64,000 nucleotides of DNA from Candidatus Methanoperedens nitratireducens. GTDB taxonomy: Archaea; Halobacteriota; Methanosarcinia; Methanosarcinales; Methanoperedenaceae. The notes below the pieces were generated by a model. That model was given only the letters and a program-made list of their open reading frames with translations. It made no database searches and was not told where the DNA came from. The number at the start of each line of letters is the position of its first letter. The stretch's first letter is position 1. The stretch lies in assembly GCA_020724545.1 (NCBI GenBank), contig DYGR01000005.1, forward strand, positions 1 to 64,000, given 5' to 3'. Below are positions 22,128 to 41,522 of this stretch, piece after piece. Made by a program: the position numbers and the translations under genes.

Positions 22128-23591
22128 TTATTGCAGGCTGGGTTTTGAACCTCTTATGATCTCAAGGAACATTGTTTTGCTCAGGTAACCTGAGCTGATA
22201 ATCAGTAATGTAAATAGAGTAATTGAAGTAATAACCCCTATCAGGACAGGTGGATCTATATAATATAAAAACAGGAATGTGACTGTAAGCGACGCAATAA
22301 GTCGATCGATCCTGTGCAGGAGGATCTTAAGAGGGGAGAGATCGCTGGAGTAATGTATGGTTAACAGTGTATACAGGATCAAAAGAGCGGTATAAGATAT
22401 ATATGCCCCCACAAATCCATTCCCATAGCCGTATCCTTCAAAAAAATCTATTAAGAATCTGGTCAGGAAAAAGAACAAAGGCAGGAGAAAAAAGCTTCTA
22501 ATGGTAAGCGCTATGTAATCCTTTGAATTTTTGGTAAAAGATAGATTCAAGTTTGCAAGGAATATCTGAATAAAATTGAAAAGATAGCCTATTGCTAATA
22601 TAAATACATACTCGGATGCAAGTATATAATCCTCTGAAAAAAATTTTGCCACGATATAGTCTGCATAGAAGTACAGTATTATTATCAGAAGGACCAGCAG
22701 AGAGAACAGCCCTCTTGTTACATCACCTAACCCTCCTTTTTCATAAACAGTATTTTTGTTCGGATTTGTTGCTTCTGGTACGGATACGTAGCTCATAGTG
22801 CCCACTGAGAAGAGCAGAACAGAAGCGATAGTTAAGGAAACATCGTAATAGCCCTGCCATACAACGCCCAGATCATGGCTCAGGACTATTTTAATTATGT
22901 ACTGCCCCATTGAAGAAAAAGAGCCAACAATGAAGAGAGAGGAGCCAAAGACAAACATCCTTTTTGACGGGATGTTGATTGGCCGAATCAGGCTAAAATA
23001 ACCCCTGAACCGCTCTGATAATGATATATAGACCAGAGGAATGGCATTAGAGAGAGCAAAAATAAGAATTACTATAGCAAAAGAGTTTATATTGAATATA
23101 TAAACTAAAATGAATACAACCGCTAATCTGAATAGCGAGGGCAGGGTCATTATTATCCCTGGCATAGAGTAGATTCTCAATCCCTTAAAAAGTCCCTGGA
23201 AGACCACGGTTATGCTAATAAAAAGAAGCGAACTTATGATCACGATATAGAGAAGTTCCCATCTCTCCATAGGCAGATTTAGATAATTAAAAAATTCTTT
23301 ATTATATATAAACAAAAGAATAGCTAAGAGGGTTGTTATCAATAGACTAAAAGCCATTGCTGATCCGAAATAGTTCTTGCCCTCACCAGCATGGGACAGT
23401 ATGTAAAAAAAATTGAGAGTGGATACCAGTTGAAACATTCCAGGCAGCGAGATCGCCACCAGCGTTATAATTCCATACTCATAAGGCGTTATGCTATTTG
23501 CAAGCACGACCTTTGTCAGTGCGCCTACCCCTCTTTGCAGGACTATAAATAATATAAAAATTATTGAATAGAATGTTAACGTCTTCTTCAT
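22128..23591 (-). CDS. Polysaccharide flippase, Wzx/MOP superfamily
   Basis: A 487-residue integral membrane protein with about 14 hydrophobic helices spread over its whole length, the pattern of Wzx/RfbX-type lipid-linked oligosaccharide flippases. The N-terminal segment (QRGVGALTKVVLANSITPYEYGI) is typical for the family. It is the last gene of the minus-strand glycan operon (32.0 to 22.1 kb), 6 bp after the first ATP-grasp gene. It probably moves a polyprenyl-linked glycan to the outer face of the membrane. Confidence 0.88.
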   Translation of the reverse strand: MKKTLTFYSIIFILFIVLQRGVGALTKVVLANSITPYEYGIITLVAISLPGMFQLVSTLNFFYILSHAGEGKNYFGSAMAFSLLITTLLAILLFIYNKEFFNYLNLPMERWELLYIVIISSLLFISITVVFQGLFKGLRIYSMPGIIMTLPSLFRLAVVFILVYIFNINSFAIVILIFALSNAIPLVYISLSERFRGYFSLIRPINIPSKRMFVFGSSLFIVGSFSSMGQYIIKIVLSHDLGVVWQGYYDVSLTIASVLLFSVGTMSYVSVPEATNPNKNTVYEKGGLGDVTRGLFSLLVLLIIILYFYADYIVAKFFSEDYILASEYVFILAIGYLFNFIQIFLANLNLSFTKNSKDYIALTIRSFFLLPLFFFLTRFLIDFFEGYGYGNGFVGAYISYTALLILYTLLTIHYSSDLSPLKILLHRIDRLIASLTVTFLFLYYIDPPVLIGVITSITLFTLLIISSGYLSKTMFLEIIRGSKPSLQ

Positions 23592-23597: not shown

Positions 23598-24725
23598 TCA
23601 GATTACTATGCGTTTTAACTTTCTAATGAATTTTATTGGAACACTGGCCAGAAATGGTTTAATATCATCAAGCTCAAAGATGTAATACGCATCATCCTCA
23701 TGAAATTTAATATAATTTATTAATTCAGTTAGTTTATAACTGACAGGATATTCACCTTTTAATATGGCGAGTAAATGATATAGATCAGCAAATATGGGAT
23801 GGCGGCATTTTAATCCTGTTTTGTAACTGAGTGAAGTATCTATATCTCCCTCTTCCTCCATTTTATATAGCAAATATGGATAATCAACCCCGGCCGCCAT
23901 AGCTGCCTGCACTGAGCCCCAGAACCTCGGATTTATTTCTAATAGTTTTGGTTTCTTATCGCGCTCATCTATTATAAAATCAAAATCAGCTATACCGTAA
24001 TAATCCAGAGGTTCCAGAAACTTCATGCCCAGCTTTAATATATCGGGCTGCTCCACAGTTTCAACAAAGCTTGACGGCCCTGTCTTTAAAGGATAAGTCC
24101 TGATTACTTTTAATACAGTAGCTCTCCTGACCCTGGAGTCTCTATTTAATAAAAGTTCCAATTTATATTTTTCCTTAAAAGGAATTTTTTCTTGAATAAT
24201 CAGGGGACCATAATTATTTAGAACATGTTTGTAAGCACTTTTAAATCCCTCTGGTGAATCTACTATTGCTATTCCTCTCCCGCCGGTTCCTCTATCAGGT
24301 TTTATCATAACCGGAAAACCAATCTCTTTTCCTACCCTGTCTAAATCATCTGAGCCATTAACAAAGTATGTTTTAGGACAGGGGATATTATTCTCTATTG
24401 CATGTTTAACCAGTGAGGATTTATTACTTAATTTTTCAAGAACAGGGTAATCAGAAAATGGTAATCTACATTTATATCTTGCCTTATTTTTAGCCAGAAG
24501 CATCATCAGATCTTCATCCACAGGCATTACAATATCTTTATCAGATAGCTTTGAAAAAAAATCAATATTGTTATTTGATACTATCCTGCGGCTGCAATAT
24601 TTCGAAAAAAAAGTTAAGGCATATCTATTACTTGAAAGTACAGTAGTGTCTATCTTTTTTCTTCCAAGAGACCTTGTTATTGCTAAAGCGGTGTTACCGT
24701 CACCAGCAGTGATTACTGCACTCAT
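23598..24725 (-). CDS. ATP-grasp ligase, copy 1
   Basis: A 375-residue ATP-grasp protein. The domain order is a Rossmann-like N-terminal part (MSAVITAGDGNTALAITRS), the ATP-grasp core from about residue 105 (IPCPKTYFVNG, then FPVMIKPDRGTGGRGI) and the metal-binding end ADFDFIIDER...LEINPRFWGS. ATP-grasp enzymes join a carboxylate, through acyl phosphate, to an amine or other nucleophile. It is closely similar to the next gene at 24814 throughout, so the pair is a tandem duplication. In a glycan cluster it may add amino acids to sugars (inference). Confidence 0.88.
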   Translation of the reverse strand: MSAVITAGDGNTALAITRSLGRKKIDTTVLSSNRYALTFFSKYCSRRIVSNNNIDFFSKLSDKDIVMPVDEDLMMLLAKNKARYKCRLPFSDYPVLEKLSNKSSLVKHAIENNIPCPKTYFVNGSDDLDRVGKEIGFPVMIKPDRGTGGRGIAIVDSPEGFKSAYKHVLNNYGPLIIQEKIPFKEKYKLELLLNRDSRVRRATVLKVIRTYPLKTGPSSFVETVEQPDILKLGMKFLEPLDYYGIADFDFIIDERDKKPKLLEINPRFWGSVQAAMAAGVDYPYLLYKMEEEGDIDTSLSYKTGLKCRHPIFADLYHLLAILKGEYPVSYKLTELINYIKFHEDDAYYIFELDDIKPFLASVPIKFIRKLKRIVI

Positions 24726-24813
24726 CTTTTGCTCCCTTTCATTAGCTCTATTCTATTCTCAGCATCGCTCTTACCAGTGCTTTTCAATTTAATATACAGA
24801 ATTAAATCACCCC

Positions 24814-25944
24814 TTATGTATCCTTCTTTGCCCCAAATTTTCTGTGTAGTTTGATCGGGATCAAAGCCAGAAATGGCTTAACATCCTCTAATTCAAAGAT
24901 GTAATATGAATCATCCTGGTGAAATTTAAGATAATCAACTATATTGGTTAGTTTATAAGAGAGAGGGTAGTTTCCCCTTAATACTGCCAGTAAACGATAC
25001 AGGTCATTAAATATGGCAAAACGACACTTTACCCCGAGTTTGTAATTAAGTGAGACATCGATATCTCCTTCTACTGCCATTTTATATAGTAAATACGGAT
25101 AGTCAACCCCGGATGTAATGGCTGCCTGAATTGATTTCCAGAACCTCGGATTTATTTCCATTAATACTGGCTTTTTATTGCGTTCATCTATCACAAAATC
25201 AAAATCAGCCATACCATAATAATTCAGGGATTCCAGCAACTTTAAACTATAATTTACTAGATCCGGCCGCTCCACGGTTTCTACAAAAACTGAAGGCCCT
25301 GTTACCAGTGGATATGCCCTGTGTACTTTTAATACAGTAACTCTCCTTGCCTTTGAATCGCTATTTAATAGGGCCTGTACTTTATATTTTTCTTTAAAAG
25401 GAATTTTCTCTTGAATAGAGGCCGGGCCATAATTTTTTAAAACATGCCTGTAAGTATTTTTTAGTTCTTCTGGTGAATCTACTATTGCTATTCCGCTCCC
25501 TCCAGTTCCGCTATTAGGTTTTATTACAACTGGAAAATCAAGTTCTTTTGCTACCCCATCTAAAGTGTCTGAACCATTAACAAAGCATGTTTTAGGGCAT
25601 GGAATCTTATTCTCCATGGCATGCCTGATCAATGAAGATTTGTTAATGATTTTTTCAAGAGTGGAGTACTCAGAAAAGGGCAATCTGCATCTCAGTCTCT
25701 GCTTATTCTTAGCCAGAAGCAGCATAACATCCTCATCCATAGGCATTATAATATCCTCCCCAGACATTCTCTTGAAAAAATCAATATTGTAGTCAGATAT
25801 TGCCTTATGGTTGCAGTATTTTGAATAGAATGACAGTGCATGCCTGTCTTTTGCAACTACAGTAGTATCTATATCCTTTTTTCCCAGAGATCTCAAAACA
25901 GATAGAGCAACATTAAACTCACCATTTATGATAACCGCATTCAT
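24814..25944 (-). CDS. ATP-grasp ligase, copy 2
   Basis: A 376-residue paralogue of the gene at 23598, collinear over the full length with matching landmarks (IPCPKTCFVNG, FPVVIKPNSGTGGSGI, ADFDFVIDERNKKPVLMEINPRFW). Differences cluster in the N-terminal Rossmann part and the C-terminal 60 residues. All core ATP- and metal-binding residues remain, so both copies look active and may differ in substrate. It is 14 bp downstream of a FemAB-like gene, and an 88 bp gap separates it from copy 1. Confidence 0.88.
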   Translation of the reverse strand: MNAVIINGEFNVALSVLRSLGKKDIDTTVVAKDRHALSFYSKYCNHKAISDYNIDFFKRMSGEDIIMPMDEDVMLLLAKNKQRLRCRLPFSEYSTLEKIINKSSLIRHAMENKIPCPKTCFVNGSDTLDGVAKELDFPVVIKPNSGTGGSGIAIVDSPEELKNTYRHVLKNYGPASIQEKIPFKEKYKVQALLNSDSKARRVTVLKVHRAYPLVTGPSVFVETVERPDLVNYSLKLLESLNYYGMADFDFVIDERNKKPVLMEINPRFWKSIQAAITSGVDYPYLLYKMAVEGDIDVSLNYKLGVKCRFAIFNDLYRLLAVLRGNYPLSYKLTNIVDYLKFHQDDSYYIFELEDVKPFLALIPIKLHRKFGAKKDT

Positions 25945-25958
25945 TCTTTCCTTCCTCC

Positions 25959-26963
25959 CTATTTTACAGTCTGTCTTGCTATTTTATAAATATATGATGA
26001 ATACTTAACTGCTGAATACCATATAGCGAGTTCAGGATTGTACTTTGATTTAAAATGCCGCAATCTTGGATCATCGCCGCCGTCCATCTCCTCGTAATAT
26101 CTGTATCCATTATTACATGCCCATTTTATAGCCTCCCACTGTACCAGGTCGTTAGGAGATATTCCTTTAAGATCCGATTTTGGCACGCCCACCCACAGGT
26201 ACATGATATCCTTATAGCACAGAGAGATCATACCCCCTACTTTCTCTCCTTTGTATGTAGCAATAAAAATCTTCAGGTTGTCTGGATGAAATGTATCATA
26301 TAATTCTGATAGATATCTACTATGATCTGATGGCCTAAAACCCTGCCTCTCAAATCTCCTGTACAGGGAGGAGCGTATAAATCCTATATCCTCTTTATTC
26401 CCTTCTTCTACCCCGACACCCTCTCTAATCGCTCTATTAATATCAACTCTGAGCTTTCTATCAAACTGCTCCCATACATGATCTACGCCACCGGTAAGAT
26501 TAATACGATAGGTGTATAGTGGTTCTACCTGGTATCCACCCCATATAAAAGGTCTTGAATCAAATAGGCCAGGGGAGGAGCGGATCCTGACATACTTGCA
26601 TTTGAGTTCAATGAAGAGAAATCTATCTATCTCTTCCTGAAGCTGCATAAAAGTACTCTCTTTTTTATTCTGCTTCAAGTTATCATAATCCAGGATAACC
26701 GGCCCCAGGTACAGGAGATATGCCTTAGGAAGAGGTGAGAATGCAATATTAAAAAATCCTTTTTTTTGTATAAATACTGGATAGATTCCGACCAGGTTTT
26801 CGCCCCTGTAGGCCATTAGAGGATAAAGGACACTGCTGGTATGGTTTTGTACGATCTTAAGCCATTCCCATGTATGAAATAATGTTCCATGCGATGATGA
26901 TGCTACTGCACTGTTCCATTTCTCTATATCCGACTCACCGGCTACCTTTATCTCCAGGGTCAT
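25959..26963 (-). CDS. FemAB-like GNAT-fold transferase, copy 1
   Basis: A 334-residue protein with two GNAT-like halves, as in FemAB/FmhB aminoacyltransferases and the FemAB-related proteins of PEP-CTERM exopolysaccharide clusters. Landmarks are SSHGTLFHTWEWLKIV near the N-terminus, a central VDINRAIREGVGVEEG, and YYEEMDGGDDPRLRHFKSKYNPE near the C-terminus. The start at 26963 is chosen for the GGTGA site seven bases upstream, and its ATG overlaps the previous stop (ATGA). It may transfer an amino acid or acyl group to a glycan; the donor is unknown. Confidence 0.85.
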   Translation of the reverse strand: MTLEIKVAGESDIEKWNSAVASSSHGTLFHTWEWLKIVQNHTSSVLYPLMAYRGENLVGIYPVFIQKKGFFNIAFSPLPKAYLLYLGPVILDYDNLKQNKKESTFMQLQEEIDRFLFIELKCKYVRIRSSPGLFDSRPFIWGGYQVEPLYTYRINLTGGVDHVWEQFDRKLRVDINRAIREGVGVEEGNKEDIGFIRSSLYRRFERQGFRPSDHSRYLSELYDTFHPDNLKIFIATYKGEKVGGMISLCYKDIMYLWVGVPKSDLKGISPNDLVQWEAIKWACNNGYRYYEEMDGGDDPRLRHFKSKYNPELAIWYSAVKYSSYIYKIARQTVK

Positions 26964-27988
26964 ATTTTGTTCACCCACCTCTTTACACTAACGTTTTTTC
27001 TAACAATATCAGTAATTAGCTTTGATATAGAGGAGGAATATCTCTCTGCCGAAAAAGTAACTACCAGGTCTGGATTGAATTTTGAATTAGAGCTATAAAG
27101 TCTCCTATCGCCTGCGGTTCCTGTTATCCTGTAATGCTTGAAGCCATTATCATATGCCCATTTAATACATTCCCAGTCTAATAAATCGTTAGCGTGCTCA
27201 ACTGCCTTAACATTACCTATCCACGCGGCGGCTGCATGTTTGAAATAAACATCTATAGAACCGCTAATAACATTTCCCTCATGCTCTGCCACAAATACCC
27301 TGAGGTTAGAGGGGTAGAGTGTATCATACATCTCAAGCAGATAATCTTTTGAGACGTGGACTTTCCTTCCCTGCTCGGCATATCGCTCCACCAGCAGTTC
27401 ATAGATGTGCAGCATATCCTCTCTACTGCCCTCTCTTACAGAAATACCCCGCCTCTGCGCTCTTTTTATATCCTGTTTTGTGTTTTTTCTGATATTCGAC
27501 CATATTTTATCTAACTCATCATTCAGGCAGAAGATGTAATTGTATGTCGGTTCAACATCGTACCCTCCCCACTTGTAGCAGCGCGAGTCCTGCAAAGACG
27601 CAGAACTTAAGACCAGGTAATCCGGATTTATGCTGGAGAATATAAATTCATCAACACTTTTCTGGAATTCTATAGTAATTGATTCTCTTTTATGCTGCTT
27701 TAATCCATCATAACCCGCTAATACCGGTCCGAGCCTGGGGATGGCTACATGTGGTGGGGGGGAAAATAGAAGCTTCATCCACAGTTTTTTCTGGTAAAAG
27801 AGGGGAATGCACCCTACAGGTTCAATGCCTCTTTGTACTATTACAGGGTATAGCTTTGTTTTAGAATATTTCTCTAATATCTTCAGGCACTTCCATGTAT
27901 GGAATACAGTGCCATGGGGCGAAGATTCCACGATCCTATCCCACAGTTCAGCATCGCTATCATCAGCGATTCTCGACTCAATTTCCAT
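26960..27988 (-). CDS. FemAB-like GNAT-fold transferase, copy 2
   Basis: A 342-residue paralogue of the gene downstream at 25959. It shares SSPHGTVFHTWKCLKIL, the DIKRAQRRGISVREGSREDM segment and a matching YRITGTAGDRRLYSSNSKFNP C-terminal motif. The GNAT-type acyl-donor fold is duplicated as in FemAB. It overlaps the deacetylase gene by 11 bases and the next FemAB gene by four, so the operon is tightly coupled. Divergence between the copies is greater than between the two ATP-grasp copies, suggesting an older duplication or different substrates. Confidence 0.85.
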   Translation of the reverse strand: MEIESRIADDSDAELWDRIVESSPHGTVFHTWKCLKILEKYSKTKLYPVIVQRGIEPVGCIPLFYQKKLWMKLLFSPPPHVAIPRLGPVLAGYDGLKQHKRESITIEFQKSVDEFIFSSINPDYLVLSSASLQDSRCYKWGGYDVEPTYNYIFCLNDELDKIWSNIRKNTKQDIKRAQRRGISVREGSREDMLHIYELLVERYAEQGRKVHVSKDYLLEMYDTLYPSNLRVFVAEHEGNVISGSIDVYFKHAAAAWIGNVKAVEHANDLLDWECIKWAYDNGFKHYRITGTAGDRRLYSSNSKFNPDLVVTFSAERYSSSISKLITDIVRKNVSVKRWVNKI

Positions 27989-29585
27989 GGTTCCACTCCG
28001 TGAATTCTATCTCTACATACTCATTATTTTTAAGACTATCAGTTCGGATTGAAAATTGATCCCCATTTGCCCCGATAACCCTGGCATTGGAGATTTTCTT
28101 AACAATCATCTTTTCAGGTGGATAAACATTCAGGAAATGGTTTTTTTCCTTTGGATACGGGATTATTCTCAGGCATGTACCTTCATAATCCCACTCAAAG
28201 CTTGTTTTTTCTCTCCATATCCACCAGCTGGAGATCTCCCTGGCGCTTGTAACCCAGGCATTCTTTTTCTTGCAGTATTCTATCATTTTCTCATAATAAG
28301 CACTCCATCCCGGGAATTCATGATCATTAAATACTGAGTGGTGCCACAGCAATGTAACCACACCCCCGGATCTCTCCACCTCTCCTAGAATCTTTAATCC
28401 CTCTACGCATGGGTTTTTGTACCTGAAAAAAGGAAGGTCCTCGATCACAAGAGGGATCTCAAGGATAGAGAGAGCGCGGTCCTCATGTGCGTAAAAGGGC
28501 CTGAACGGAAAGCATGTGCCCCATCTAAAACCAATACAGTTATTGAAGCCCAGGGTAGTATCATACTCAAGCCCTGCCCTCTCCTGATGCAGCCAGGTCT
28601 GGGGGATGCTAAGATTAAGGTTGTGCTGCCTGATACCATGGACCTCACTTCCAAGTGCACCCTCCAGCGCTTCTTTCTCTTTTTGTATTTTCTCAAAATC
28701 GTTATGGGAATAAAAAGAACCGTGCAGACCAACATCCCATCCCTTTGAATGTAATTCCCTTATCATACTCGCAACTTTCGGGTTATTAAAACTGTATCTT
28801 CTCCCGGAGTGTCTCCAGGTTTTTTTATCAAGCAGTTTTACTTTCCCTGTTTCGTTAAGAAAGAAAAAAGAGGATCTGACACCAAGCTTATTCTCCAGTT
28901 CCATTATCCTCTCAAAAGTCCAGTACGGCTCTTCTCCCCTGATCTTATGTATAAATGAGGATGACTGGTTATAGATACCTCTCAGGTCATATCTGGCAGC
29001 AAATCTGAGAGGATAGGTTATCCATTGGTATATTTTTTTTATCTCATCAACATCATGTGTCAGACAGACTGCAAATCTCTTCCCGTCTGGCCAGAATGCC
29101 TTGTGTACAAGGGGCAAGTTTGACCTCTTATGGGCATTGAGCAATGAATTAAATAAAATTTCACCATAGTAATCGGCAAATGGAATGCTTACTATGCCAT
29201 TCTTTTCTCCTCCTATATGCATCCATACTTTCTCAAGGTATCCCGACAGGCTGTAGCCTATATGCCTGAATATATCCAGGCCTATGATTATATCCCCACC
29301 CACAGCAACAGCACACGGGTATTTTCTATTATCCCCTGAGTATGTTAGCAGTGCATCCCCTTCACCAGTCAGGTCAAGAGGAACTCTAAACACAGGCAAT
29401 CTCTCATTCCCCAGTTCAATCCAGCCGGTTATATTCTTAAGATTTATTCTATTATGATTATAAGAAACAAACCGTATCTGTGATCGTTGATCTGTGCTTG
29501 TAAGATCAATACCGTATTTTATAAGGAAACTTCTCAGGCCATACAGAGAGTACCTGTCTTTTGTGAAATTAATTGTTATGCTCAT
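27978..29585 (-). CDS. Polysaccharide deacetylase-like protein
   Basis: A 535-residue cytoplasmic protein with a polysaccharide deacetylase (NodB-like) domain over about residues 175-440. The metal-binding motif is CLTHDVDE, the next conserved strand is SSFFFLNE, and HGSFYSHN plus GIRQHNL form the later active-site pieces. A conserved LWHHSVF follows near the end. An N-terminal ~150-residue extension and a C-terminal beta-rich segment flank it. Start choice is uncertain: a TTG at 29597 overlaps the previous stop, while the ATG at 29585 is standard. It probably removes acetyl groups from glycan intermediates. Confidence 0.82.
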   Translation of the reverse strand: MSITINFTKDRYSLYGLRSFLIKYGIDLTSTDQRSQIRFVSYNHNRINLKNITGWIELGNERLPVFRVPLDLTGEGDALLTYSGDNRKYPCAVAVGGDIIIGLDIFRHIGYSLSGYLEKVWMHIGGEKNGIVSIPFADYYGEILFNSLLNAHKRSNLPLVHKAFWPDGKRFAVCLTHDVDEIKKIYQWITYPLRFAARYDLRGIYNQSSSFIHKIRGEEPYWTFERIMELENKLGVRSSFFFLNETGKVKLLDKKTWRHSGRRYSFNNPKVASMIRELHSKGWDVGLHGSFYSHNDFEKIQKEKEALEGALGSEVHGIRQHNLNLSIPQTWLHQERAGLEYDTTLGFNNCIGFRWGTCFPFRPFYAHEDRALSILEIPLVIEDLPFFRYKNPCVEGLKILGEVERSGGVVTLLWHHSVFNDHEFPGWSAYYEKMIEYCKKKNAWVTSAREISSWWIWREKTSFEWDYEGTCLRIIPYPKEKNHFLNVYPPEKMIVKKISNARVIGANGDQFSIRTDSLKNNEYVEIEFTEWNHGN

Positions 29586-29593
29586 ATCAGATC

Positions 29594-30946
29594 TCAAATC
29601 CTCAGCGGTACTTTGGATGTGACAAATTTTCGCTTCCCAGACCTTCCTGATGATGGAATCTCCTCAACGAATTCTATATTCACTTCTACATCGCCCCCAA
29701 TTTTGCTCTGGATTTTATTCTTTATATTATGTAGATCATTTACTGTAAATCTATCATTTTTAATAATTTTTACAATTATTTTATCTATTCTTTCCTGGAT
29801 TACCTGAAACTGATCCACTCCTTCAACACTTTTAAATAGAACAGTAAAGAACTGAACTACTATAAAACCACCTGCAGGCGTTATTATGATATCAGTATCC
29901 CGCCCCTCAATTGATCTCATCAGGGATAGTCCTCTACCGCAGTTGCACAGCTCCTCAGAGAATTTCCCAAGGTCGTTTATATCATACCTGATAAACGGCA
30001 TAGCATAGTTATTGAGATTTGTAAAAACAATCTTGCCGATCTCATCTGGCGCTACTCTTTCTCCCTCTTTAATGAATTCTACAACCGCATCCTCATCGCA
30101 TATATGGTATTCATCATGGTTCTCGCACTGAAAAGAGATCGGTGTTCCTTCTCCACCATACCCATCAAATATCTTACAATTGAACTGCCTCTCTATAGCC
30201 TCCCTGTAATGCGGGAATAACATATCCCCCGTAGTTGCAATATTAGCTCCTGTATAGTATATATACAGATTTTGCATAAGTTTTGATATAGTATACAGAT
30301 ACGATGCGTATCCTCTGATGATCTTGGGACTAAATTTTTTTATTCTACTTAATTCTTGACCCAGGTTATTCTCAGTAATTCCTGAAGCATAAACATAACA
30401 GGTATTTAGTAACCTGTCCTGGATCTTCTTACTGGCTGTTGTTCTGGAGTTCAGGCTTATCTTTACATACGGATCGCCTATATTATACCCGGCCCATGTC
30501 CAGCAGCGATATGTCTGCGCCCATCCAGAGGAATACGCTCCTTTATCAAGATAATACCTCATGGGTTCGCCTGTTGAGCCACTGCTGTGAAACTCTATAA
30601 TTCTTGACTTATTAATATTCCTTGCAACAAGCTCTGGCAGGTTCTTACGTATTGTATCCTTTGTCAGGATGGGTAATTTTTCTAAATCATCCTTATTCTT
30701 TATATCCCCAGGATGAATATTTCTCTCTTTAAACATTTTATGATAATATGGAACATTGGTATATGCATGATTGATCAGCGCCCTGAGTTTTTTGTTCTGC
30801 AGTTCTTCAAGTCCTTCTCTTGACCACCACTGTGTTTTGCAAAGTAATGAGAGATACTGCTGTGTATTTGTACCATAACACAGCTCCATTACCGGGAATA
30901 ATAGATTTCTAAAAATTTTGCTGTACACTCCCCCTCCTGTACTCAT
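29594..30946 (-). CDS. PaaK/CapK-type adenylate-forming enzyme
   Basis: A 450-residue member of the phenylacetate-CoA ligase/CapK group. The ANL P-loop-like motif is FHSSGSTGEPMRYY, the adenine segment is DGYGGEGTPISFQCE, and the hinge region is EGRDTDIIITPAG. The start at 30946 has GGGGAG five bases upstream. The gene overlaps the end of the DUF354 gene by 38 bases. CapK-like enzymes are common in capsule and exosortase-linked exopolysaccharide clusters, where they may activate an acyl group for transfer to sugars; no acyl-carrier protein is adjacent. Confidence 0.85.
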   Translation of the reverse strand: MSTGGGVYSKIFRNLLFPVMELCYGTNTQQYLSLLCKTQWWSREGLEELQNKKLRALINHAYTNVPYYHKMFKERNIHPGDIKNKDDLEKLPILTKDTIRKNLPELVARNINKSRIIEFHSSGSTGEPMRYYLDKGAYSSGWAQTYRCWTWAGYNIGDPYVKISLNSRTTASKKIQDRLLNTCYVYASGITENNLGQELSRIKKFSPKIIRGYASYLYTISKLMQNLYIYYTGANIATTGDMLFPHYREAIERQFNCKIFDGYGGEGTPISFQCENHDEYHICDEDAVVEFIKEGERVAPDEIGKIVFTNLNNYAMPFIRYDINDLGKFSEELCNCGRGLSLMRSIEGRDTDIIITPAGGFIVVQFFTVLFKSVEGVDQFQVIQERIDKIIVKIIKNDRFTVNDLHNIKNKIQSKIGGDVEVNIEFVEEIPSSGRSGKRKFVTSKVPLRI

Positions 30947-31997
30947 AAAAACTCCCCGGGTATCCTTCAATAAAATCGGTCATCCAGGCGGTTACATCTA
31001 TCTTATCTTTTAACAGCCTCTCCCTCTTACGTTCCCAATCCGCTTTTGAGTTTTTATCCTCAAGTATCTCCCCTGCTCTCTTGAGGGCAGAAGCAGTATC
31101 GGGATAGAAATAAAGGAGATTATACTTATCCCTCAGTTCAAGGAAGTTGCCGCTCGACTCGCCTGTAGCCCTGCCTTTTGAATCAGCCTCTATGTGGACT
31201 GCCGGTGTCCCGAGCATGGCTGCTTCTACTGCTGTGGTGCCTCCCTCTCCTATGTAGAGCTGCGCAAAAGCAAGCAGGGAATGAAGCTTCTCTGGAGGGA
31301 TTTTAAGGGCATACCTCTCAAGCTTTTTATCAAGTGCTCTCTCAGAGCTTACAATAACGCGGCCAGAGTTCTCTAGCTCTCTTATAAATTCTTCCTCTTT
31401 TTTAATCCCTTTTAGACCTATATCATGGTTGGCTCTCCAGGATATAAGCCGCATGATTATGAATTTCTCGTTTTTGGATATACCAAGAGAATCCAGAACA
31501 GAAGCATCAGGTTTAAAATATGCAGGATGTAAATAAGCAATTTCCTTGTACCCGTTATATTTTACATGTTTGTCAGGATCAAGTATTTCTCTAAAGCATG
31601 CAGGTGTGCATATAGTACTGGCAAAAGGATACGTCAGTGCGCTCGCTATTTTAACATTCTCGGTATCCGTGAAAATTAAGCTCTTTGCACCTGTAAGTTT
31701 TGCGACCTGGGCAGCATAGGGGTTATGTACTCCTATAAGAAGCTGGGGCTTGAAGTTTTTAATGGTTTTATAAAGCTTATAATCTATTACAGGCATTCCC
31801 AGGGCTTTTTTCAGTATGCTGTCATGGTTTTCACCAATATTGGTGTATTCAAGCCTGTATAAATTTAGCAGCATAAGAGCTACTTCTTTATTTCTGGCTG
31901 TGATCTTTACATCATGTCCCCTGTTCTCAAGATTCCTTATTGTATTCCTGAAAAAGTGCACATGGGCAGGATGGCCTATATCAATTACCACTCTCAC
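30909..31997 (-). CDS. DUF354 glycosyltransferase-like protein
   Basis: A 362-residue protein of the DUF354 family, which has a GT-B-like fold. The N-terminal motif IDIGHPAHVHFFRN and the late donor-site motif GEGGTTAVEAAMLGTPA are both clear. A GTG at 31997 is chosen: it gives the family N-terminus (VRVVIDIG) and has GGAG six bases upstream. The upstream 36 bases repeat the start region twice more (see repeat). It is the first gene of the minus-strand glycan operon. Likely a sugar transferase; donor and acceptor unknown. Confidence 0.83.
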   Translation of the reverse strand: MRVVIDIGHPAHVHFFRNTIRNLENRGHDVKITARNKEVALMLLNLYRLEYTNIGENHDSILKKALGMPVIDYKLYKTIKNFKPQLLIGVHNPYAAQVAKLTGAKSLIFTDTENVKIASALTYPFASTICTPACFREILDPDKHVKYNGYKEIAYLHPAYFKPDASVLDSLGISKNEKFIIMRLISWRANHDIGLKGIKKEEEFIRELENSGRVIVSSERALDKKLERYALKIPPEKLHSLLAFAQLYIGEGGTTAVEAAMLGTPAVHIEADSKGRATGESSGNFLELRDKYNLLYFYPDTASALKRAGEILEDKNSKADWERKRERLLKDKIDVTAWMTDFIEGYPGSFYEYRRGSVQQNF

Positions 31998-32033
31998 AAC
32001 TAACTCCACTCTTACGACTAACTCCACTCTTAT
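31980..32033 (-). repeat. Three 18-bp tandem copies at the DUF354 gene start
   Basis: Read on the minus strand, three successive 18-base units begin ATAAGAGTGGAGTTAG, GTAAGAGTGGAGTTAG and GTGAGAGTGGTAATTG. The first two differ by two bases; the third is diverged and holds the coding start. Each of the first two units contains the GGAG ribosome-binding sequence, so the start region has been duplicated in place. Confidence 0.8.
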
Positions 32034-32239
32034 AACTTATTAACGCATAAATCCCTTATTAAGTTTTCTATACCATGAGTTGTGGGCAAGATGGAATATA
32101 AAGCAATATTAAATATATGAAACATTATTTTAATAATGATATAATTATAGCTTTTGGAAATCGCTAAATTTATATAGTTACAGGTAGTAGTAGCTAATGC
32201 TCTTGGCGAGTGGGTAGGCTTTGAGCAAAAATTAAAGGA

Positions 32240-32779
32240 GTGGTTAATATTAGGAACAAAATTGTAGCTGTAGCTACGCTTTTTGCCGTGATGATAGCCA
32301 TTACGGGAATAGCGGCGGCGCAGAATGAGATCAGAGTGGAACCTGGCGTGATAACTATCGACGCAGGTGGAACGGCAACACAGGAAGTAACTGTAACTGC
32401 AGAGGATGGTAATATAAAATCACTTACAGTCAGTGGCGATGGATTTAAAATAACAGATAAGTTCGATGTATTGATTGATGGGGAAGAAAGGACATCAATA
32501 TCGGGAGATTTCCCTTCTCCTAAGACATTTATTGTTACCCTTATTAATGGTAAAGGTGCGTCGGATGAAGATTTTACCATTAGTTTTAAATCAACATTCA
32601 CTCATGGCGATGTTCAAACTAAGAAAGCAAAGATACAGAATGACATCATAATAAGGCCGACACCAACACCAACACCTGTACCCATCGCTGTCCCTGAATT
32701 CCCAACCGTAGCTCTGCCGATTGCCGCAATAATGGGACTGGTATTCCTCTTCCAGTACAGGAGAAGGAGAAACAGCTAA
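32240..32779 (+). CDS. PEF-CTERM secreted protein
   Basis: A 179-residue surface protein. It starts at a GTG (32240) closely following AAAGGAG, opens with a signal peptide (about residues 4-28, ending AAA), has one beta-sandwich domain, a Pro/Thr-rich stretch (TPTPTPVP) and a textbook PEF-CTERM tail: PEFPTVALPI, a hydrophobic helix and RRRRNS. PEF-CTERM is recognised by an archaeosortase, which cuts the tail and links the protein to the membrane or a glycolipid. It lies beside the glycan cluster but faces the opposite way. No archaeosortase gene is in the window. Confidence 0.88.
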   Translation: MVNIRNKIVAVATLFAVMIAITGIAAAQNEIRVEPGVITIDAGGTATQEVTVTAEDGNIKSLTVSGDGFKITDKFDVLIDGEERTSISGDFPSPKTFIVTLINGKGASDEDFTISFKSTFTHGDVQTKKAKIQNDIIIRPTPTPTPVPIAVPEFPTVALPIAAIMGLVFLFQYRRRRNS

Positions 32780-32796
32780 CATAGAGTGAGAAAAGA

Positions 32797-32823
32797 TAGC
32801 CAGACTTTCCTGGCTACTCTTTT
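32797..32823 (+). terminator. Hairpin after the PEF-CTERM gene
   Basis: TAGCCAG (32797-32803) and CTGGCTA (32810-32816) form a perfect seven-base stem with a six-base loop, followed by CTCTTTT. It lies 18 bp after the stop codon and could end transcription of the PEF-CTERM gene. Confidence 0.6.
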
Positions 32824-32847
32824 ACTACAGTAAAAAGAGGAGGTATA

Positions 32848-32994
32848 TTGGAGATAATTGAAGTTAAATGTGAGAATTGCAGCAGGAAGATCTATATTCA
32901 AGAGGATTATATCAGGAAAAAGATGTTCTGTACACTTGGATGCATGGACTCATATACGGGAGAGCCATCCTTGAAATGCAGAACGCTTAACTGA
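32848..32994 (+). CDS. Small zinc-finger protein, 48 aa
   Basis: An open frame of 48 codons starts at TTG (32848) after a strong GAGGAGG four bases upstream. The product has six Cys residues: a CENC pair near residue 9-12, CTLGC near residue 30-34 and a Cys near the C-terminus (LKCRTLN). The CxxC...CxxxC layout suggests a treble-clef or ribbon zinc site. It lies between a PEF-CTERM gene and a membrane sugar-phosphate transferase. No family was recognised. The TTG start and short length leave some doubt, but the ribosome-binding site and Cys spacing argue for a real gene. Confidence 0.6.
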   Translation: MEIIEVKCENCSRKIYIQEDYIRKKMFCTLGCMDSYTGEPSLKCRTLN

Positions 32995-33050
32995 TATTTT
33001 TCTTTTTACTTTATTTTGTCAAATAAATATATGTAATTCACCATTAGCCT

Positions 33051-33114
33051 GGTGAGAGTGTTTGAGGTTTATTTATATTTATGATCAGGGTGAGAGTATT
33101 TGAAGTATATCTAT
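33051..33114 (+). repeat. Direct repeat at the sugar-phosphate transferase start
   Basis: GGTGAGAGTGTTTGAGGTTT at 33051-33070 and GGTGAGAGTATTTGAAGTAT at 33089-33108 are copies of one start region; over 26 bases there are four mismatches. The second copy carries the ribosome-binding site and TTG start of the real gene. The first copy gives a frame that stops after 13 codons. Confidence 0.75.
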
Positions 33115-34074
33115 TGGCTTTTTATTGAGATCGCGGTTGTATTTCTGCTTCCTTTTTTAATTATGCTTATCACTATGCCCTACCTTATACGGAAGCTCAA
33201 AGAAAAGGGTTTTGTGGCAAAGGATTACCATAAAAAGGGTGAGAAGATGGTACCTACAGGTGGAGGGATTGCCATCATGCTTGCTGCTCTTTTCTCTCTA
33301 TCCATAAATTCACTGTTCTATAAATTCGATGCCATCAATTATGTGATATTAAGTGTGATTATGCTGTTTGGTCTGTTCGGCATCCTCGATGACATGATAG
33401 ATATCGGAAGGACAGTAAAGCTTATCCTTGTGTATTATAGCTCATATCCATTAATACAGTATGCAACACATTCAGGAGTGATATCTCCTTTTTTTGGCCA
33501 GGTCGATTTTGCAAATTTCTACAGCCAATTTATCGTGCCTACTTACGTACTGGTAACTGCTAATCTTGTAAATATGCATTCAGGCTTCAATGGAATGTCA
33601 TCAGGACTTTCGCTCATAGTTCTTATCTCACTGCTCATTAAATCCCTGATAGCGGGGTCTATTGAGGATATCAATAAGATTATGGCCATCTTTGCGATCA
33701 CAGGTGCAACACTTGGTTTTCATCTATTCGAACGCTACCCCTCCCGCGTGTTCTGGGGAAATATAGGATCATTGACCGTAGGTGCGGCGATTGGCGTGCT
33801 GATAGTCATGCAGGGTTACATCATCAGCGGGTTTGTCATGCTTCTTCCCCATACGATCAATTTCTTGATGTATGTGTACTGGCGTATCAAAAAATACCCG
33901 CCTGCAAAATTTGGAAAGATAAGGGACGATGGCACACTCGAGGTCCCAAATCCCCTAACTCTTAAGTGGGTGCTTCCATATTACATGAAGATGACAGAGA
34001 AACAGGCAACCTATGCTATGTATGCAGTAACAGCAGTGTTTTGTATTATAGGGATATTATTAATTGATGGATAA
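33100..34074 (+). CDS. Glycosyl-4 family UDP-sugar:polyprenyl-phosphate sugar-1-P transferase
   Basis: A 324-residue membrane protein with about ten helices of the MraY/WecA/Alg7 family. Conserved cytoplasmic loops are KDYHKKGEKMVPTGGGIAI (about residues 43-61), GILDDMIDIG (Asp pair), NMHSGFNGMSSG and GNIGSLTVGAAIG. Such enzymes load GlcNAc-1-P or a related sugar onto polyprenyl phosphate, the first membrane step of N-glycan or exopolysaccharide assembly. The TTG start at 33100 follows GGTGAGAG. It heads a run with the hexapeptide acyltransferase (12 bp on) and aminotransferase. Confidence 0.92.
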   Translation: MKYIYWLFIEIAVVFLLPFLIMLITMPYLIRKLKEKGFVAKDYHKKGEKMVPTGGGIAIMLAALFSLSINSLFYKFDAINYVILSVIMLFGLFGILDDMIDIGRTVKLILVYYSSYPLIQYATHSGVISPFFGQVDFANFYSQFIVPTYVLVTANLVNMHSGFNGMSSGLSLIVLISLLIKSLIAGSIEDINKIMAIFAITGATLGFHLFERYPSRVFWGNIGSLTVGAAIGVLIVMQGYIISGFVMLLPHTINFLMYVYWRIKKYPPAKFGKIRDDGTLEVPNPLTLKWVLPYYMKMTEKQATYAMYAVTAVFCIIGILLIDG

Positions 34075-34086
34075 GGAGTTATAACC

Positions 34087-34746
34087 ATGGAACATAAAAG
34101 AACAGGATACTTCAAAATATATGGGCAAAGTAACATTGGAAAGAACACCATACTTGGTGAAGGTGTGATCATTGGCTATCCGACAGCCAGTATTCTGAGA
34201 CAGGCAGCATCTGATGGGATAAGTATAGATGATATGGATTTTAGAGGTGCTGTCATAGGGGATAATGCGGTCATCAGGTCGAATTCTATTATTTATACTG
34301 ATGTCGAGACTGGCAGTAACCTGCGTACCGGACACAATGTCCTGATTCGTGAAGAGACCATCACAGGGGATAATGTGCTTATCGGCACCAACACTATCAT
34401 AGATGGACGCACGATGATTGGAAACAACGTCAGCATACAGGGGAATGTGTACATACCATTGAATGTTATAATTGAGGACAATGTTTTCATAGGGCCGTGC
34501 GCAGTGCTTACCAATGATAGATATCCTGTAAGGAGAAAATCAGATCTGATAGGCCCTATCCTGAGAAGGGGTGCATCTGTTGGGGCAAATGCCACTTTAC
34601 TGCCTGGAGTTGAGATCGGTGAGGGCGCTATGGTGGCTGCAGGTGCACTTGTGACAAAGGATGTGCCGTCGTGGAAATTAGCGATAGGTTTCCCGGCCGT
34701 AATAAAGGATCTGACAGAAGAGCTAAGAACTGTTAATACCATCTGA
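34087..34746 (+). CDS. Left-handed beta-helix (hexapeptide) acyltransferase
   Basis: A 219-residue protein built almost entirely of hexapeptide repeats such as [16 protein letters not shown] and [14 protein letters not shown], with the extended loop [13 protein letters not shown] typical of WbpD-type UDP-GlcNAc3NA N-acetyltransferases. The C-terminal repeats end in [15 protein letters not shown]. It is followed after 5 bp by a DegT aminotransferase, the usual partner that makes the amino sugar to be acetylated. It therefore probably N-acetylates a UDP-amino sugar for surface glycans. Confidence 0.9.
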
Positions 34747-34751
34747 ATATT

Positions 34752-35843
34752 ATGATTCCTATAGCAAAGCCTTTTATTGGTGAAGAAGAGATCGATGCTG
34801 TTACCGGGGCGCTCAGGTCTGGTAATATTGCTGAAGGTCAGAAAGTAAAAGATTTTGAGGCTGCCTTTGCTGAGTATGCGGGCACATCCCATGCGGTTGC
34901 AGTTAGCTCAGGGACTGCCGCGCTCCATGTGGCGCTGCTTGCGCATAATATCGGGACCGGGGATGAGGTTATAACGACTCCCTTTACTTTCGTTGCATCA
35001 TCCAACTCGGTTTTGTTCACAGGCGCAAGGCCGGTTTTTGCTGATATCGAGGAGAACACATACAATATAGATCCTGAGAGCATTGTTGAGAAAATAACCC
35101 CGAGAACAAAGGCCATTGTTCCTGTTCATCTGTACGGGCAGGCTGCAGATATGAGGAGCATAATGGAGATCGCGCAGGATAATGATCTACTTGTGATAGA
35201 GGATGCCTGCCAGGCGCACGGGGCTACCTATAATGGTAAAATGGCAGGCTCATTCGGCACAGGTACATTCAGTTTCTATCCAACCAAGAACATGACCACA
35301 GGAGAAGGGGGTATGATAACAACAGATGATAAAGATGCAGTAGAACGCGCACGAATGATCAGGTCACACGGCTCAAAGCAGAGGTATTTCCATGAGATCC
35401 TGGGGTATAACTTGCGTATGACCGATATGGCTGCTGCTTTAGGGCTGGTTCAGTTAAGGAGGCTTGATGGTTTCAATCAGACCAGGATCAATAATGCGGA
35501 GTACCTGAGCAGCAGGTTAAATAAAATCAAAGGAATAAAGGTTCCCTGTATATCAGGGCACTGCAGGCATGTATTCCACCAGTACACTGTGAGGTTAAAC
35601 AGCGAATCTGTATCAAGAGACGATGCTGTATCCCTCTTAAGCCAGAGGGGGATAGGCACAGGGATATATTATCCCCTGCCGATCCATAAACAGCCCTTCT
35701 ATAAGCAGATAGGATACAATGATTCCCTGCCGGTATCCGAGAGAGCAGCGTCCGAGGTGATCTCCCTGCCGGTTCACCCTGCTGTTAGTAAGAATGATCT
35801 GGATACAATCTCTGAGGCATTGAGGGAGATATTGCTTAGCTGA
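34752..35843 (+). CDS. DegT/DnrJ/EryC1-family sugar aminotransferase
   Basis: A 363-residue PLP-dependent aminotransferase of sugar nucleotides. The N-terminal KPFIGEEEIDAVTGALRSG, the substrate motif AVSSGTAALHVAL, the VIEDACQAHGA segment that holds the PLP-ring Asp, and the Lys in FSFYPTKNMTTGEGG are all in place. The preceding acetyltransferase is 5 bp away, so the pair likely makes an N-acetylated amino sugar for the surface glycan. After this gene the sequence changes to a repeat-rich accessory region. Confidence 0.95.
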   Translation: MIPIAKPFIGEEEIDAVTGALRSGNIAEGQKVKDFEAAFAEYAGTSHAVAVSSGTAALHVALLAHNIGTGDEVITTPFTFVASSNSVLFTGARPVFADIEENTYNIDPESIVEKITPRTKAIVPVHLYGQAADMRSIMEIAQDNDLLVIEDACQAHGATYNGKMAGSFGTGTFSFYPTKNMTTGEGGMITTDDKDAVERARMIRSHGSKQRYFHEILGYNLRMTDMAAALGLVQLRRLDGFNQTRINNAEYLSSRLNKIKGIKVPCISGHCRHVFHQYTVRLNSESVSRDDAVSLLSQRGIGTGIYYPLPIHKQPFYKQIGYNDSLPVSERAASEVISLPVHPAVSKNDLDTISEALREILLS

Positions 35844-36017
35844 TATCTGCGTTTATTTGCGTTCATCCGCGGTAATGGATGGCTAGCAGCGCGCTGGATC
35901 TGATCGCAGATAGCCGTGCAGCCATGAAGCGCAAGATAAACACCGAACTAAAACGAACTGAACGAACTCTTTGATCATGGATTTCAAGTTCAAGCCAGTA
36001 TTTCGTTTTCGATTGAT
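35844..36017. repeat. Repeat-filled intergenic region (copies of three dispersed repeats)
   Basis: This gap starts with an inverted copy of the AACGCAGAT-type repeat (35845-35877). It continues with a copy of the CTGATCGCAGATAGCCGTGC repeat (35875-35930), found also at 37822-37869 and 38809-38861. It ends with an 84 bp element (35931-36014, starting GCAAGATAAACACCGAAC) repeated at 40400-40483. No gene is supported. Confidence 0.75.
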
Positions 36018-36347
36018 CTACTCATTCTGCAGCCGTCCCTTGAACAGCGCCAGCAGGTCATTGAGTGCATATTTCCCTTTCAGCCTGTATGCTAAAGCGG
36101 CTGTGCCGGTTAAGACAAGGATCACCATGGATACATTTACAAGATTGATCTTTACTCCCAGGAAGTAGTTGAGCCAGAAAACCGCCAGAGGCACAAGCGC
36201 AATGCTCAGGCCGAAAGATAGAGCGATGCGCTCTATCCAGTCGATCTCTTCTTTTGTGAAGAACACAAAACTCCATGCAAAACCAGGCAGGAACAGCGCA
36301 AATGCAGAGCCTGAGATTATCCTTATTATCTCAACAATATCAACCAT
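36018..36347 (-). CDS. DUF1616-like membrane protein
   Basis: A 109-residue membrane protein with three hydrophobic helices (about residues 10-28, 43-62, 66-86) and the motif IISGSAFALFLPGFAWSFV typical of DUF1616 proteins. The start at 36347 is supported by GAGGAGG nine bases upstream; that site lies inside the end of a broken upstream gene. DUF1616 proteins occur with S-layer and glycan genes in methanogens, but their function is unknown. It is a short family member and may be only the N-terminal module. Confidence 0.72.
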   Translation of the reverse strand: MVDIVEIIRIISGSAFALFLPGFAWSFVFFTKEEIDWIERIALSFGLSIALVPLAVFWLNYFLGVKINLVNVSMVILVLTGTAALAYRLKGKYALNDLLALFKGRLQNE

Positions 36348-36534
36348 CTTTTTCATCCTCCTCAAAAAGCAGCAGTGAAAGCATTATAATAAGTACACCT
36401 GCTACAATGGAGATCAAATAAGCAAGCCCTCCAATGTCCTGGATCTTGTACCAGACTATCAATAAGAGCGCCGTCTATAACGTTCACTTTATCGTCATTG
36501 TTCATATCTGCGCCGTCATCGTATCTTGCTATAA
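36340..36534 (-). pseudogene. Remnant of a surface protein with dockerin-like motif and C-terminal helix
   Basis: Read on the minus strand, one frame gives YDDGADMNNDDKVNVIDG, a dockerin-like calcium motif. A different frame just downstream gives WYKIQDIGG followed by a hydrophobic helix (LISIVAGVLIIMLSLLLF) and the tail EEDEKDG before a stop that overlaps the DUF1616 start. The two pieces are joined by a frameshift near 36455. The 5' part is missing, cut off where the HicB-like gene begins. It is probably the decayed upstream partner of the DUF1616 gene. Confidence 0.55.
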
Positions 36535-36774
36535 TCAATCTGCATAGACAGCTACCATTGGTTCTGAGAAAATATGAACTTCCTTTTCAGGTATTGGTTC
36601 TCTGTCTTCGATGAGTTCTTCTATTATCATTTCAACTACTTCTCTTATATTCTTTAATGCTTCTTCTTTAGTATACCCCCATGTAGCTCCTCCTTTATCT
36701 TCCAGGGCCGGACAATAAGCATGCCAGCGATCTTCATCCGGTTCTACCACTACTTTCAAAACATATGTTCTCAT
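36535..36774 (-). CDS. HicB-like antitoxin-family protein (orphan)
   Basis: A 79-residue protein of the HicB family: an N-terminal beta-alpha fold (YVLKVVVEPDEDRWHAYCPALE), the typical GYTKEEALKNIREVVEMIIEEL helix and a C-terminal strand. The start at 36774 is favoured by AGAGGT nine bases upstream; longer in-frame extensions lack a site. No HicA toxin is visible on either side, so this is an orphan or acts with a distant partner. It lies at the edge of the repeat-rich island and abuts a broken gene. Confidence 0.8.
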   Translation of the reverse strand: MRTYVLKVVVEPDEDRWHAYCPALEDKGGATWGYTKEEALKNIREVVEMIIEELIEDREPIPEKEVHIFSEPMVAVYAD

Positions 36775-36950
36775 TTTTGTTTTACCTCTGCTTTCTCCAT
36801 TATACAGCATTACATCATAGATGCTATTAAATCTTATCAAAATTTTAAACCGCAGATTAACGCAGATGACTTCGGAGCAACTCTTAAGAGAATAATTCCG
36901 AAGGGTTTATTTAATTTTTCTTTGTATATTAATTCTCCAAAATCCACTTG

Positions 36951-37122
36951 TGGGATGGAACCAAAGATTATATGGTAGAGACCGTGTTGGAGGTAAATGG
37001 CACCGGCATCCTTTTGAGGCTCCACGGACGCATGACTTACGGGTGATGGAGGGAAGGATATAACTCCCGAGGAGTTTATTGATGAAGTTTTTGAAATCTT
37101 ATTGAGAGAAAAATTAATTTGA
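36951..37122 (+). pseudogene. Decayed small protein, possibly TumE/DUF6516-like toxin
   Basis: On the plus strand, GRDRVGGKWHRHPFEAPRTHD in one frame is followed by DITPEEFIDEVFEILL in another, with a frameshift near 37055 and in-frame stops upstream. The His/Arg-rich centre and the acidic C-terminal helix resemble the end of TumE-type (DUF6516) toxin-antitoxin proteins, though this assignment is tentative. The rest of the 36841-37169 gap holds a short GCAGATTAACGCAGAT repeat copy (36849-36864) and no other gene. Confidence 0.35.
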
Positions 37123-37169
37123 TACAAACATAAAACCCATACTCAGCCAAAAACCAATAAACAGACCTC

Positions 37170-37424
37170 TTATACTGCAACTTCACTCAGGCTTAATTCT
37201 CCTGCTGCCACAGGATGGACAAGCAAGGTGGATTCGTGAAATTTCTTCATGATTTTATCGATTTTTTCAGAGACCTCAGGGGTATAGTAGGCTTCGCCGC
37301 ATTCTTCACAGATATATGCAGAGACGTCTTTTATTGTGAGTACTTCCTTCCCTACTTTTACCACAAACTCTGTCTTTCCTTTGATAAGCTTGCCTTTACA
37401 AAAACTGCATTTATCAGGTTTCAT
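37170..37424 (-). CDS. YgiT-type zinc-finger protein (MqsA-like), orphan
   Basis: An 84-residue protein with the YgiT/MqsA-type zinc finger: CSFCKG near the start and CEECGE near residue 50, followed by a helical stretch (EVSEKIDKIMKKF). The start at 37424 has AAGGAG six bases upstream and matches the usual family N-terminus; an ATG at 37487 is possible but would add an unusual extension. Unlike the complete pair at 38884/39135, no toxin gene precedes it, so it appears to be an orphan antitoxin. Confidence 0.78.
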   Translation of the reverse strand: MKPDKCSFCKGKLIKGKTEFVVKVGKEVLTIKDVSAYICEECGEAYYTPEVSEKIDKIMKKFHESTLLVHPVAAGELSLSEVAV

Positions 37425-37965
37425 TACAATCTCCTTAAATTCATCTTTTGCAAATAGTTCTTTTAGATGATTATGATAAACACCCATTGTTATCTCTTCT
37501 CCTTATCACCTTTATCTTTAAAATAGTTACTTAAAGCTCCTTCATGGTTTTTTGTCTAAATCCTGTGCTTTTGGAACTTGATGCCAGCAAGCGCCGAATA
37601 TATTGGTTTCAGCTATTTGCTGTGAGGCAGATACGGGAAGGTGAGATTCAGGCACAGAGAAATAGGGTGGTTAAAATTTATATAGCATTCTAATTATTCA
37701 ATTGGCAGCGCAGATATGTTATCGGGGCAACCTCCTATAGACATTGAATAATAAAGGAACTGCAGATGAACGCCGATGAACGCAGATGCCTGTTGCCCTG
37801 ATCCTCTCTATTTTAGAAAAATATGGCCTGCGGCGCTGGGTCTGATCGCGGATAGCCGTGCAGCCATGACGTTTCTGACTTATCCGAAGCCTGTACAGCG
37901 GACTTTTGCTGATGGCGGCCACGCCGTACAAAGGTATAATAACATTAATACCAACTATTATAGAG
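37425..37965. repeat. Repeat mosaic in gap between toxin-antitoxin genes
   Basis: The gap holds no supported gene. It contains an 88 bp element (37701-37788, GATATGTTATCGGGGCAACC core, ending in the CGCCGATGAACGCAGATG repeat) that recurs at 39676-39763. It also holds a copy of the CTGATCGCGGATAGCCGTGC element (37822-37869) and a 35 bp element (37894-37928, TACAGCGGACTTTTGCTGAT) that recurs at 40721-40755. Confidence 0.75.
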
Positions 37966-41316: not shown

Positions 41317-41522
41317 GCCATATCTTCAGGATTGTACGTTTCTTCATTTTCAACCAATTCGTCAACTAACTCTTTTCTGATAGGTAAAGATCCACTAATC
41401 TCTTCGACTATGGATTTCTCCGGAACTTCTTTTATAGTTACAATTACGTCTTTATCACTTAATTTTAATTTTTCATGCAATAATTTGCCATCCTTTACTT
41501 TTGCAGGGATTGTAATTTGCAT
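41313..41522 (-). CDS. AbrB/DUF104-like antitoxin
   Basis: A 69-residue protein whose N-terminus (MQITIPAKVKDGKLLHEKLKL) has the short beta-hairpin of AF2212/DUF104-like or AbrB-like antitoxins. An acidic C-terminal tail probably wraps the toxin. The start at 41522 follows GGTGA by five bases; longer in-frame starts lack one. It precedes and overlaps the VapC-like gene, which supports the pairing even though the family assignment is loose. Confidence 0.7.
   Translation of the reverse strand: MQITIPAKVKDGKLLHEKLKLSDKDVIVTIKEVPEKSIVEEISGSLPIRKELVDELVENEETYNPEDMA

Follow-up and report, generated by a model that had tools for sequence, protein, structure and literature searches.

The window analysed here, a stretch of 64,000 nucleotides from the methane-eating archaeon Candidatus Methanoperedens, contains an operon that on balance appears to make a surface glycan whose amino sugar carries amino acids. 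Archaea lack murein, and to our knowledge FemAB-type amino-acid substitution of glycans is hardly documented among them. The operon offers a concrete gene set and a predicted mass shift, in a genus that has PEF-CTERM proteins and archaeosortase C. The original prediction of a glycan operon with amide-forming enzymes in a murein-free host was supported, as was its general idea of amino acids placed on a sugar, for which a VimE-like deacetylase would give the free amine and the Wbp/Vim pathway a precedent (PMC7468200).

Organization of the locus

Eight genes follow one another on the minus strand, from 32027 to 22128. The first encodes a DUF354 protein (D354, 30909..32027; PF04007, 88 bits), a probable GT-B glycosyltransferase. 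It is followed by genes for a PaaK/CapK-like AMP-forming ligase (29594..30970), a VimE-like carbohydrate N-deacetylase (DEAC, 27978..29597), the FemAB-like proteins FB2 (26960..27988) and FB1 (25959..26978), the predicted ATP-grasp amide ligases AG2 (24814..25944; PF02786, 57 bits) and AG1 (23598..24725), and a Wzx-like flippase for polysaccharide export (22128..23591; PF01943, 31.4 bits, above cut-off). The two ATP-grasp and two FemAB-like proteins named in the original prediction were all found and match Pfam families above cut-off, namely ATP-grasp families for AG1 and AG2 and both Acetyltransf_6 and FemAB for FB1 and FB2. The PaaK-like ligase matches the NCBIfam DVU1553 family (138 bits) and PaaK (121 bits), both below cut-off, and its motifs SSGSTG, RYD, GRD and GKRKF are all present. 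Neighbouring genes of the run overlap or are separated by 6-88 bases, which points to a single operon.

Divergent from the operon, on the plus strand, lie genes for a secreted protein with a PEF-CTERM archaeosortase signal (32240..32779; TIGR03024, 30.8 bits, cut-off 23), an MraY/WecA-type transferase of sugar 1-phosphate to a lipid carrier (33100..34074; PF00953, 88 bits), a NeuD/PglD-like hexapeptide acyltransferase (34087..34746; PF00132, 92 bits; TIGR03570, 77 bits, below cut-off) and a PseC-like DegT-family sugar aminotransferase (34752..35843; PF01041, 449 bits; TIGR03588, 325 bits, below the cut-off of 423). The same locus with the same gene order is present in M. nitroreducens ANME-2d (L045), where AG2 is 98% identical. 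All open reading frames are open there, with 92-98% amino acid identity and dN/dS values of 0.07-0.38 relative to the window, indicating that these are real genes under selection.

Elsewhere in the window, positions 36000-42400 contain only short open reading frames, followed by a DDE_5 transposase. An Rfam search of 31900-43000 gave no match, and a search for tandem repeats in the gene-poor stretch beside the operon revealed nothing of note. Positions 49538-54399 encode NosD/beta-helix proteins that resemble pieces of one interrupted gene; one of them has a PGF-pre-PGF domain.

The ATP-grasp pair

AG1 and AG2 share 67% identity over 370 amino acids and are sisters in the tree (support 100/98), while outside relatives are single-copy. 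By sequence and tree, the pair is a local, Methanoperedens-specific duplication. AG1 evolves faster (dN/dS 0.377 vs 0.084 for AG2). In both proteins K142, E179, E263 and N265 are among the conserved columns of the alignment, so that the ATP-grasp fold is accompanied by the ATP lysine, the glutamate and the E-x-N metal residues. The AG2 model (pLDDT 89.8) has an ordinary ATP-grasp fold. The best matches in the fold search were carboxylases, with biotin carboxylase, PurK and PylC ranked alike; the family is broad. An amino acid or an amine may serve as acceptor but is a candidate only, the substrate being unreadable from the sequence.

ATP-grasp enzymes activate carboxylates and the family is not specific, and AG1 and AG2 might instead amidate the carboxylate of a uronic acid with an amino acid or amine, not extending a FemAB product at all. 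We regard this as somewhat unlikely. No clear uronic-acid enzymes are encoded beside the operon, and the DegT protein is closer to PseC than to uronate enzymes.

Each of the four outside genomes whose ATP-grasps are closest to AG2 (L046, L047, L056 and L104) has a FemAB gene adjoining the ATP-grasp gene, and chance adjacency of the two gene types was rejected on these grounds. The same ATP-grasp family also occurs in many bacterial loci in which no FemAB was detected. In the literature searched, nothing was found on a pairing of ATP-grasp and FemAB proteins in polysaccharide loci. In another species of the genus, two genes of this ATP-grasp family form a tandem pair of independent origin (L039; G028 contig 84, 12061-15715), followed by a FemAB_like (PF04339) protein.

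Two non-equivalent FemAB-like proteins

FB1 and FB2 share 40% identity over 335 amino acids and fall into two separate clades; sequences from a Methanomicrobiaceae MAG and a 'Deltaproteobacteria' MAG are found in both (the phylum given for a MAG contig is that of its deposited record). A tandem duplication of the FemAB genes was rejected on the basis of this tree; FB1 and FB2 are, judged by their sequences, ancient paralogues that travel together. The adjacent paralogue pairs of the original prediction thus stand (67% and 40% identity), and its "paired duplications" hold for the ATP-grasps but not for the FemABs. Both proteins score below the cut-off of 260 bits of the XrtA/PEP-CTERM FemAB equivalog TIGR03019 (53.8 and 47.3 bits).

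The FB-family profile matches FemX over nearly its full length (positions 12-309 of 348, E 5.7e-19). In this alignment F304-K305 of FemX corresponds to F309-K310 of FB1, and FB2 has S300-N301. Lys305 of FemX and Lys329 of DhpH-C are catalytic (PMC12945691). Across 36 aligned FemAB proteins the aromatic residue and the lysine are kept, the exceptions being the FB2 group and the protein of locus L032, which has lost the aromatic residue and kept the lysine (S-K). The FB2 group comprises FB2 and its Methanoperedens orthologues (S-N, A-S) together with members from Methanogenium, Methanomicrobiaceae and Deltaproteobacteria (Y-S, Y-A). All six members of this clade (support 96/92) have lost the Lys305 equivalent, and all six keep a second lysine two residues on (S-K), which might substitute for it. 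An ATP-grasp gene is present in each of the six loci encoding a Lys-less FB2 and in none of the deacetylase-linked F-K loci read later, an observation only, since the six are not independent. A separate FemAB group of Methanosarcinales (L198, L199, L202 and L203) has F-I or F-A at the position of the catalytic lysine.

The original prediction that core motifs are kept was correct for AG1, AG2 and FB1 and failed for FB2, where the equivalent of the catalytic FemX lysine is lost; loss of such a site in one copy is part of what the original prediction itself named as counting against it. Two equivalent FemABs were hence not borne out, and because FB2 lacks the lysine equivalent, one amino acid per FemAB and two in all is not the safest reading. 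FB2 as a pseudogene or a product of drift was rejected, given its dN/dS of 0.069 and its retention in several lineages.

It is possible, if on the doubtful side, that FB2 is catalytically dead and acts as a heterodimer partner of FB1 or as a substrate binder, no second amino acid being added. The uniform loss, across its clade, of a lysine that is catalytic in FemX and DhpH-C, under purifying selection as strong as that on FB2, would fit such a role. However, the loci L033 and L104 lack FB1, the second lysine could take over, and other Lys-less FemABs exist, as in the F-I or F-A group. In either case, the Lys-less clade is a natural test of how essential the catalytic lysine is.

In the FB1 model (pLDDT 88.5) a pair of GNAT-like domains spans the whole protein, and the model superimposes on FemX with a TM score of 0.70. 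Its best 18 PDB matches are FemX, Sbb17/Sba18, FemA and MprF/A-PGS-type domains, all of them transferases that depend on aminoacyl-tRNA or domains homologous to these; tandem GNATs that use acyl-CoA rank lower (TM about 0.3-0.6). A plain GNAT acetyltransferase, the objection foreseen in the original prediction, is disfavoured for FB1 by this ranking. Together, the fold neighbours and the match to the catalytic lysine favour aminoacyl-tRNA as the FB1 donor, short of proof.

FB1 and FB2 could also be ordinary N-acyltransferases, with the PaaK-like ligase making an acyl-CoA whose acyl group is put on a freed amine, and no amino acid involved. A PaaK-like gene with intact adenylation motifs does lie in the same operon, and another lies near the D354-DEAC pair in locus L156. 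Nevertheless, most related cassettes (L031, L032, L033, L047, L056 and L104) have no PaaK gene, and both the tRNA-dependent fold neighbours of FB1 and the agreement of its K310 motif with FemX speak against this alternative, which we consider unlikely.

The deacetylase and its recurring association with FemAB

DEAC matches the VimE equivalog NF053580 with 95.5 bits (E 2.5e-27), well below the cut-off of 440, placing it in the same superfamily only. Its presumed metal-site residues, THDxD (180-184), H292, H325 and H419, are invariant in 12 relatives. Its gene stands directly upstream of FB2, and the enzyme would supply the missing chemical step, a free amine.

A deacetylase-FemAB cassette recurs across archaea. 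The D354-DEAC pair was present in most DEAC loci read, and a DUF354-deacetylase-FemAB cassette in L056 and L104 (Methanogenium and a 'Deltaproteobacterium' are among the carriers), L187, L188, L190-L193, L195 and L197. The deacetylase-FemAB pair was found on a Methanomicrobiaceae contig and in several genomes of the same order and the same class; L047 has it on a contig that begins there, and L199 has it without DUF354. The loci read later added further F-K FemAB proteins beside the deacetylase. Most DEAC genes of the Methanosarcina type have no adjoining FemAB, so the enzyme is not invariably tied to one. In Methanosarcina the gene that usually comes after it is another one, whose start resembles a family-2 glycosyltransferase, indicating that the cassette is modular.

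On the same contig, 80-93 kb along, a second cluster encodes two ATPgrasp_Ter/PylC-like proteins together with a WbmS-like deacetylase and a FemAB, and hence this genome brings FemAB, deacetylase and ATP-grasp together more than once. This second glycan cluster (L036; own contig C6, 74001-94000) comprises WecB, DegT, two epimerases, the FemAB (TIGR03019, 86 bits) and a phosphoesterase; the two ATP-grasp ligases flank the deacetylase, and further genes encode a HAD protein, a glycosyltransferase, a flippase and an AsnB-like amidotransferase.

A possible link to protein sorting

In sister species, PEF-CTERM proteins whose genes stand between archaeosortase C and an MraY-hexapeptide-DegT block like that of the window (about 73% identity) share 36-38% identity with the PEF-CTERM protein encoded beside the operon. 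In L137, L139 and L141 such a homologous block neighbours archaeosortase C, and the MraY protein of the window is 73-81% identical to those encoded beside archaeosortase C in these three loci and in L144 and L146. In all five loci an archaeosortase C-type gene lies opposite a gene for a protein of 970-1130 amino acids, followed by the PEF-CTERM and MraY genes; in L137 the large protein is a DUF1616 protein with a VanZ-like gene beside it. A search of the 64,000-nucleotide window revealed no archaeosortase. The genome has two archaeosortase C genes above cut-off, on other contigs (C77 and C35); distances between genes of this genome were taken from search coordinates. Contig C77 also carries a bacterial-type exosortase (L135:6405-7220; 8TM_EpsH, 163 bits, cut-off 106; XrtA, 186 bits, just below 208), with archaeosortase C 8 kb away.

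Of 12 genomes, 3 have a FemAB gene no more than 10 kb away from an archaeosortase-family gene, compared with 0.4 expected (P about 0.007, a rough, post hoc estimate that includes one weak archaeosortase C match, G022). These observations make a link between the glycan and protein sorting possible. We know of no acceptor for archaeosortase C or for most exosortases.

In one form of this link, archaeosortase C would join the proteins that it sorts to the glycan, the free amine of the sugar-borne amino acid receiving PEF-CTERM proteins, much as T9SS cargo is linked by a seryl or glycyl sugar; Veith et al. 2020 suggested the same for exosortase loci. The neighbouring PEF-CTERM gene and MraY-hexapeptide-DegT block, the proximity count and the two archaeosortase C genes of the genome are consistent with this idea. 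We nonetheless judge it unlikely: both archaeosortase C genes lie outside the window, the proximity test is approximate, the synthesis of many glycans commonly starts with MraY and DegT genes, and archaetidylethanolamine has been proposed as the nucleophile for archaeosortase A (PMC7157517). Quite improbable is the fullest version, in which a tRNA-dependent FemAB, a Lys-less FemAB and the ATP-grasps build a peptide-like decoration on an archaeal amino sugar that is the acceptor for archaeosortase C. If true, the aminoacyl sugar would be the archaeal counterpart of the linking sugar for sorted proteins.

A proposed pathway

The preferred reading, a surface glycan with an aminoacylated amino sugar, suggests the following steps, whose sequence is as conjectural as the identity of the sugar and of its amino acids. 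Judged by their families, the MraY, hexapeptide, DegT and DUF354 proteins would build a lipid-linked, N-acetylated amino sugar. The deacetylase, to go by its family, context and conserved metal-site residues, would then take off one N-acetyl group and expose an amine, to which FB1, a putative tRNA-dependent enzyme according to its modelled fold and aligned lysine, would move an amino acid from aminoacyl-tRNA. AG2 and the newer AG1, whose ATP-grasp sites are intact, may ligate a further or different free amino acid, driven by ATP and independently of tRNA, to the sugar or to the first amino-acid residue. In wall cross-links Fem ligases add glycine and L-amino acids and ATP-grasp ligases D-amino acids (PMC2922099), a reason for both types to occur in one operon. 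FB2, Lys-less yet under purifying selection, would be either a partner with a specialised role or an enzyme with altered properties, and the flippase would export the finished unit. Counting against this pathway, the matches to VimE and to FemAB/TIGR03019 are far below the equivalog cut-offs, and the PaaK-like CoA ligase of the operon could supply an acyl-CoA donor. The Methanosarcina-type deacetylase genes with no FemAB neighbour and the bacterial ATP-grasp loci with no detected FemAB weigh in the same direction.

Comparison with known systems

The nearest functional precedent, by analogy, is the Wbp/Vim pathway of Porphyromonas and Tannerella, in which VimE deacetylates an amino sugar and VimA, itself a match to TIGR03019, adds serine or glycine, as shown genetically and by mass spectrometry (PMC7468200). 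A VimE-superfamily deacetylase and a FemAB-like protein are common to both. The window differs in a deacetylase far below the VimE cut-off, in two FemABs, one without the catalytic lysine, in the extra ATP-grasp pair, in an archaeal host without outer membrane or T9SS, and in a sugar that is probably not diNAcGlcA. XrtA/PEP-CTERM exopolysaccharide loci (TIGR03019) likewise unite FemAB, deacetylase and glycan genes and have a sortase-type signal protein in their vicinity, whereas the FemABs of the window score 54 and 47 bits against a cut-off of 260, and the locus has an ATP-grasp pair and no sortase. FemABX enzymes (FemX, FemA, MurM) and Sbb17/Orf11/DhpH-C, of which Orf11 catalyses the tRNA-dependent glycylation of streptothrisamine (PMC12945691), share the tandem GNAT fold, the top structural matches and the F-K motif of FB1; identity is 12-17%, however, the host lacks peptidoglycan and FB2 lacks the lysine. 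PRK12767-type, carbamoyl-phosphate-synthase-like ATP-grasps (2pn1, PylC and the archaeal Ddl of pseudomurein) resemble AG1 and AG2 in fold and in ATP and metal residues, but no characterised member has a matching context and the window proteins score far below the equivalog cut-offs. In the Caulobacter holdfast, a polysaccharide deacetylase (HfsH) and a FemAB/GNAT-like protein (HfsK), proposed to act on freed amines, form a similar couple, with no ATP-grasp described in the parts of that report consulted (PMC5362036).
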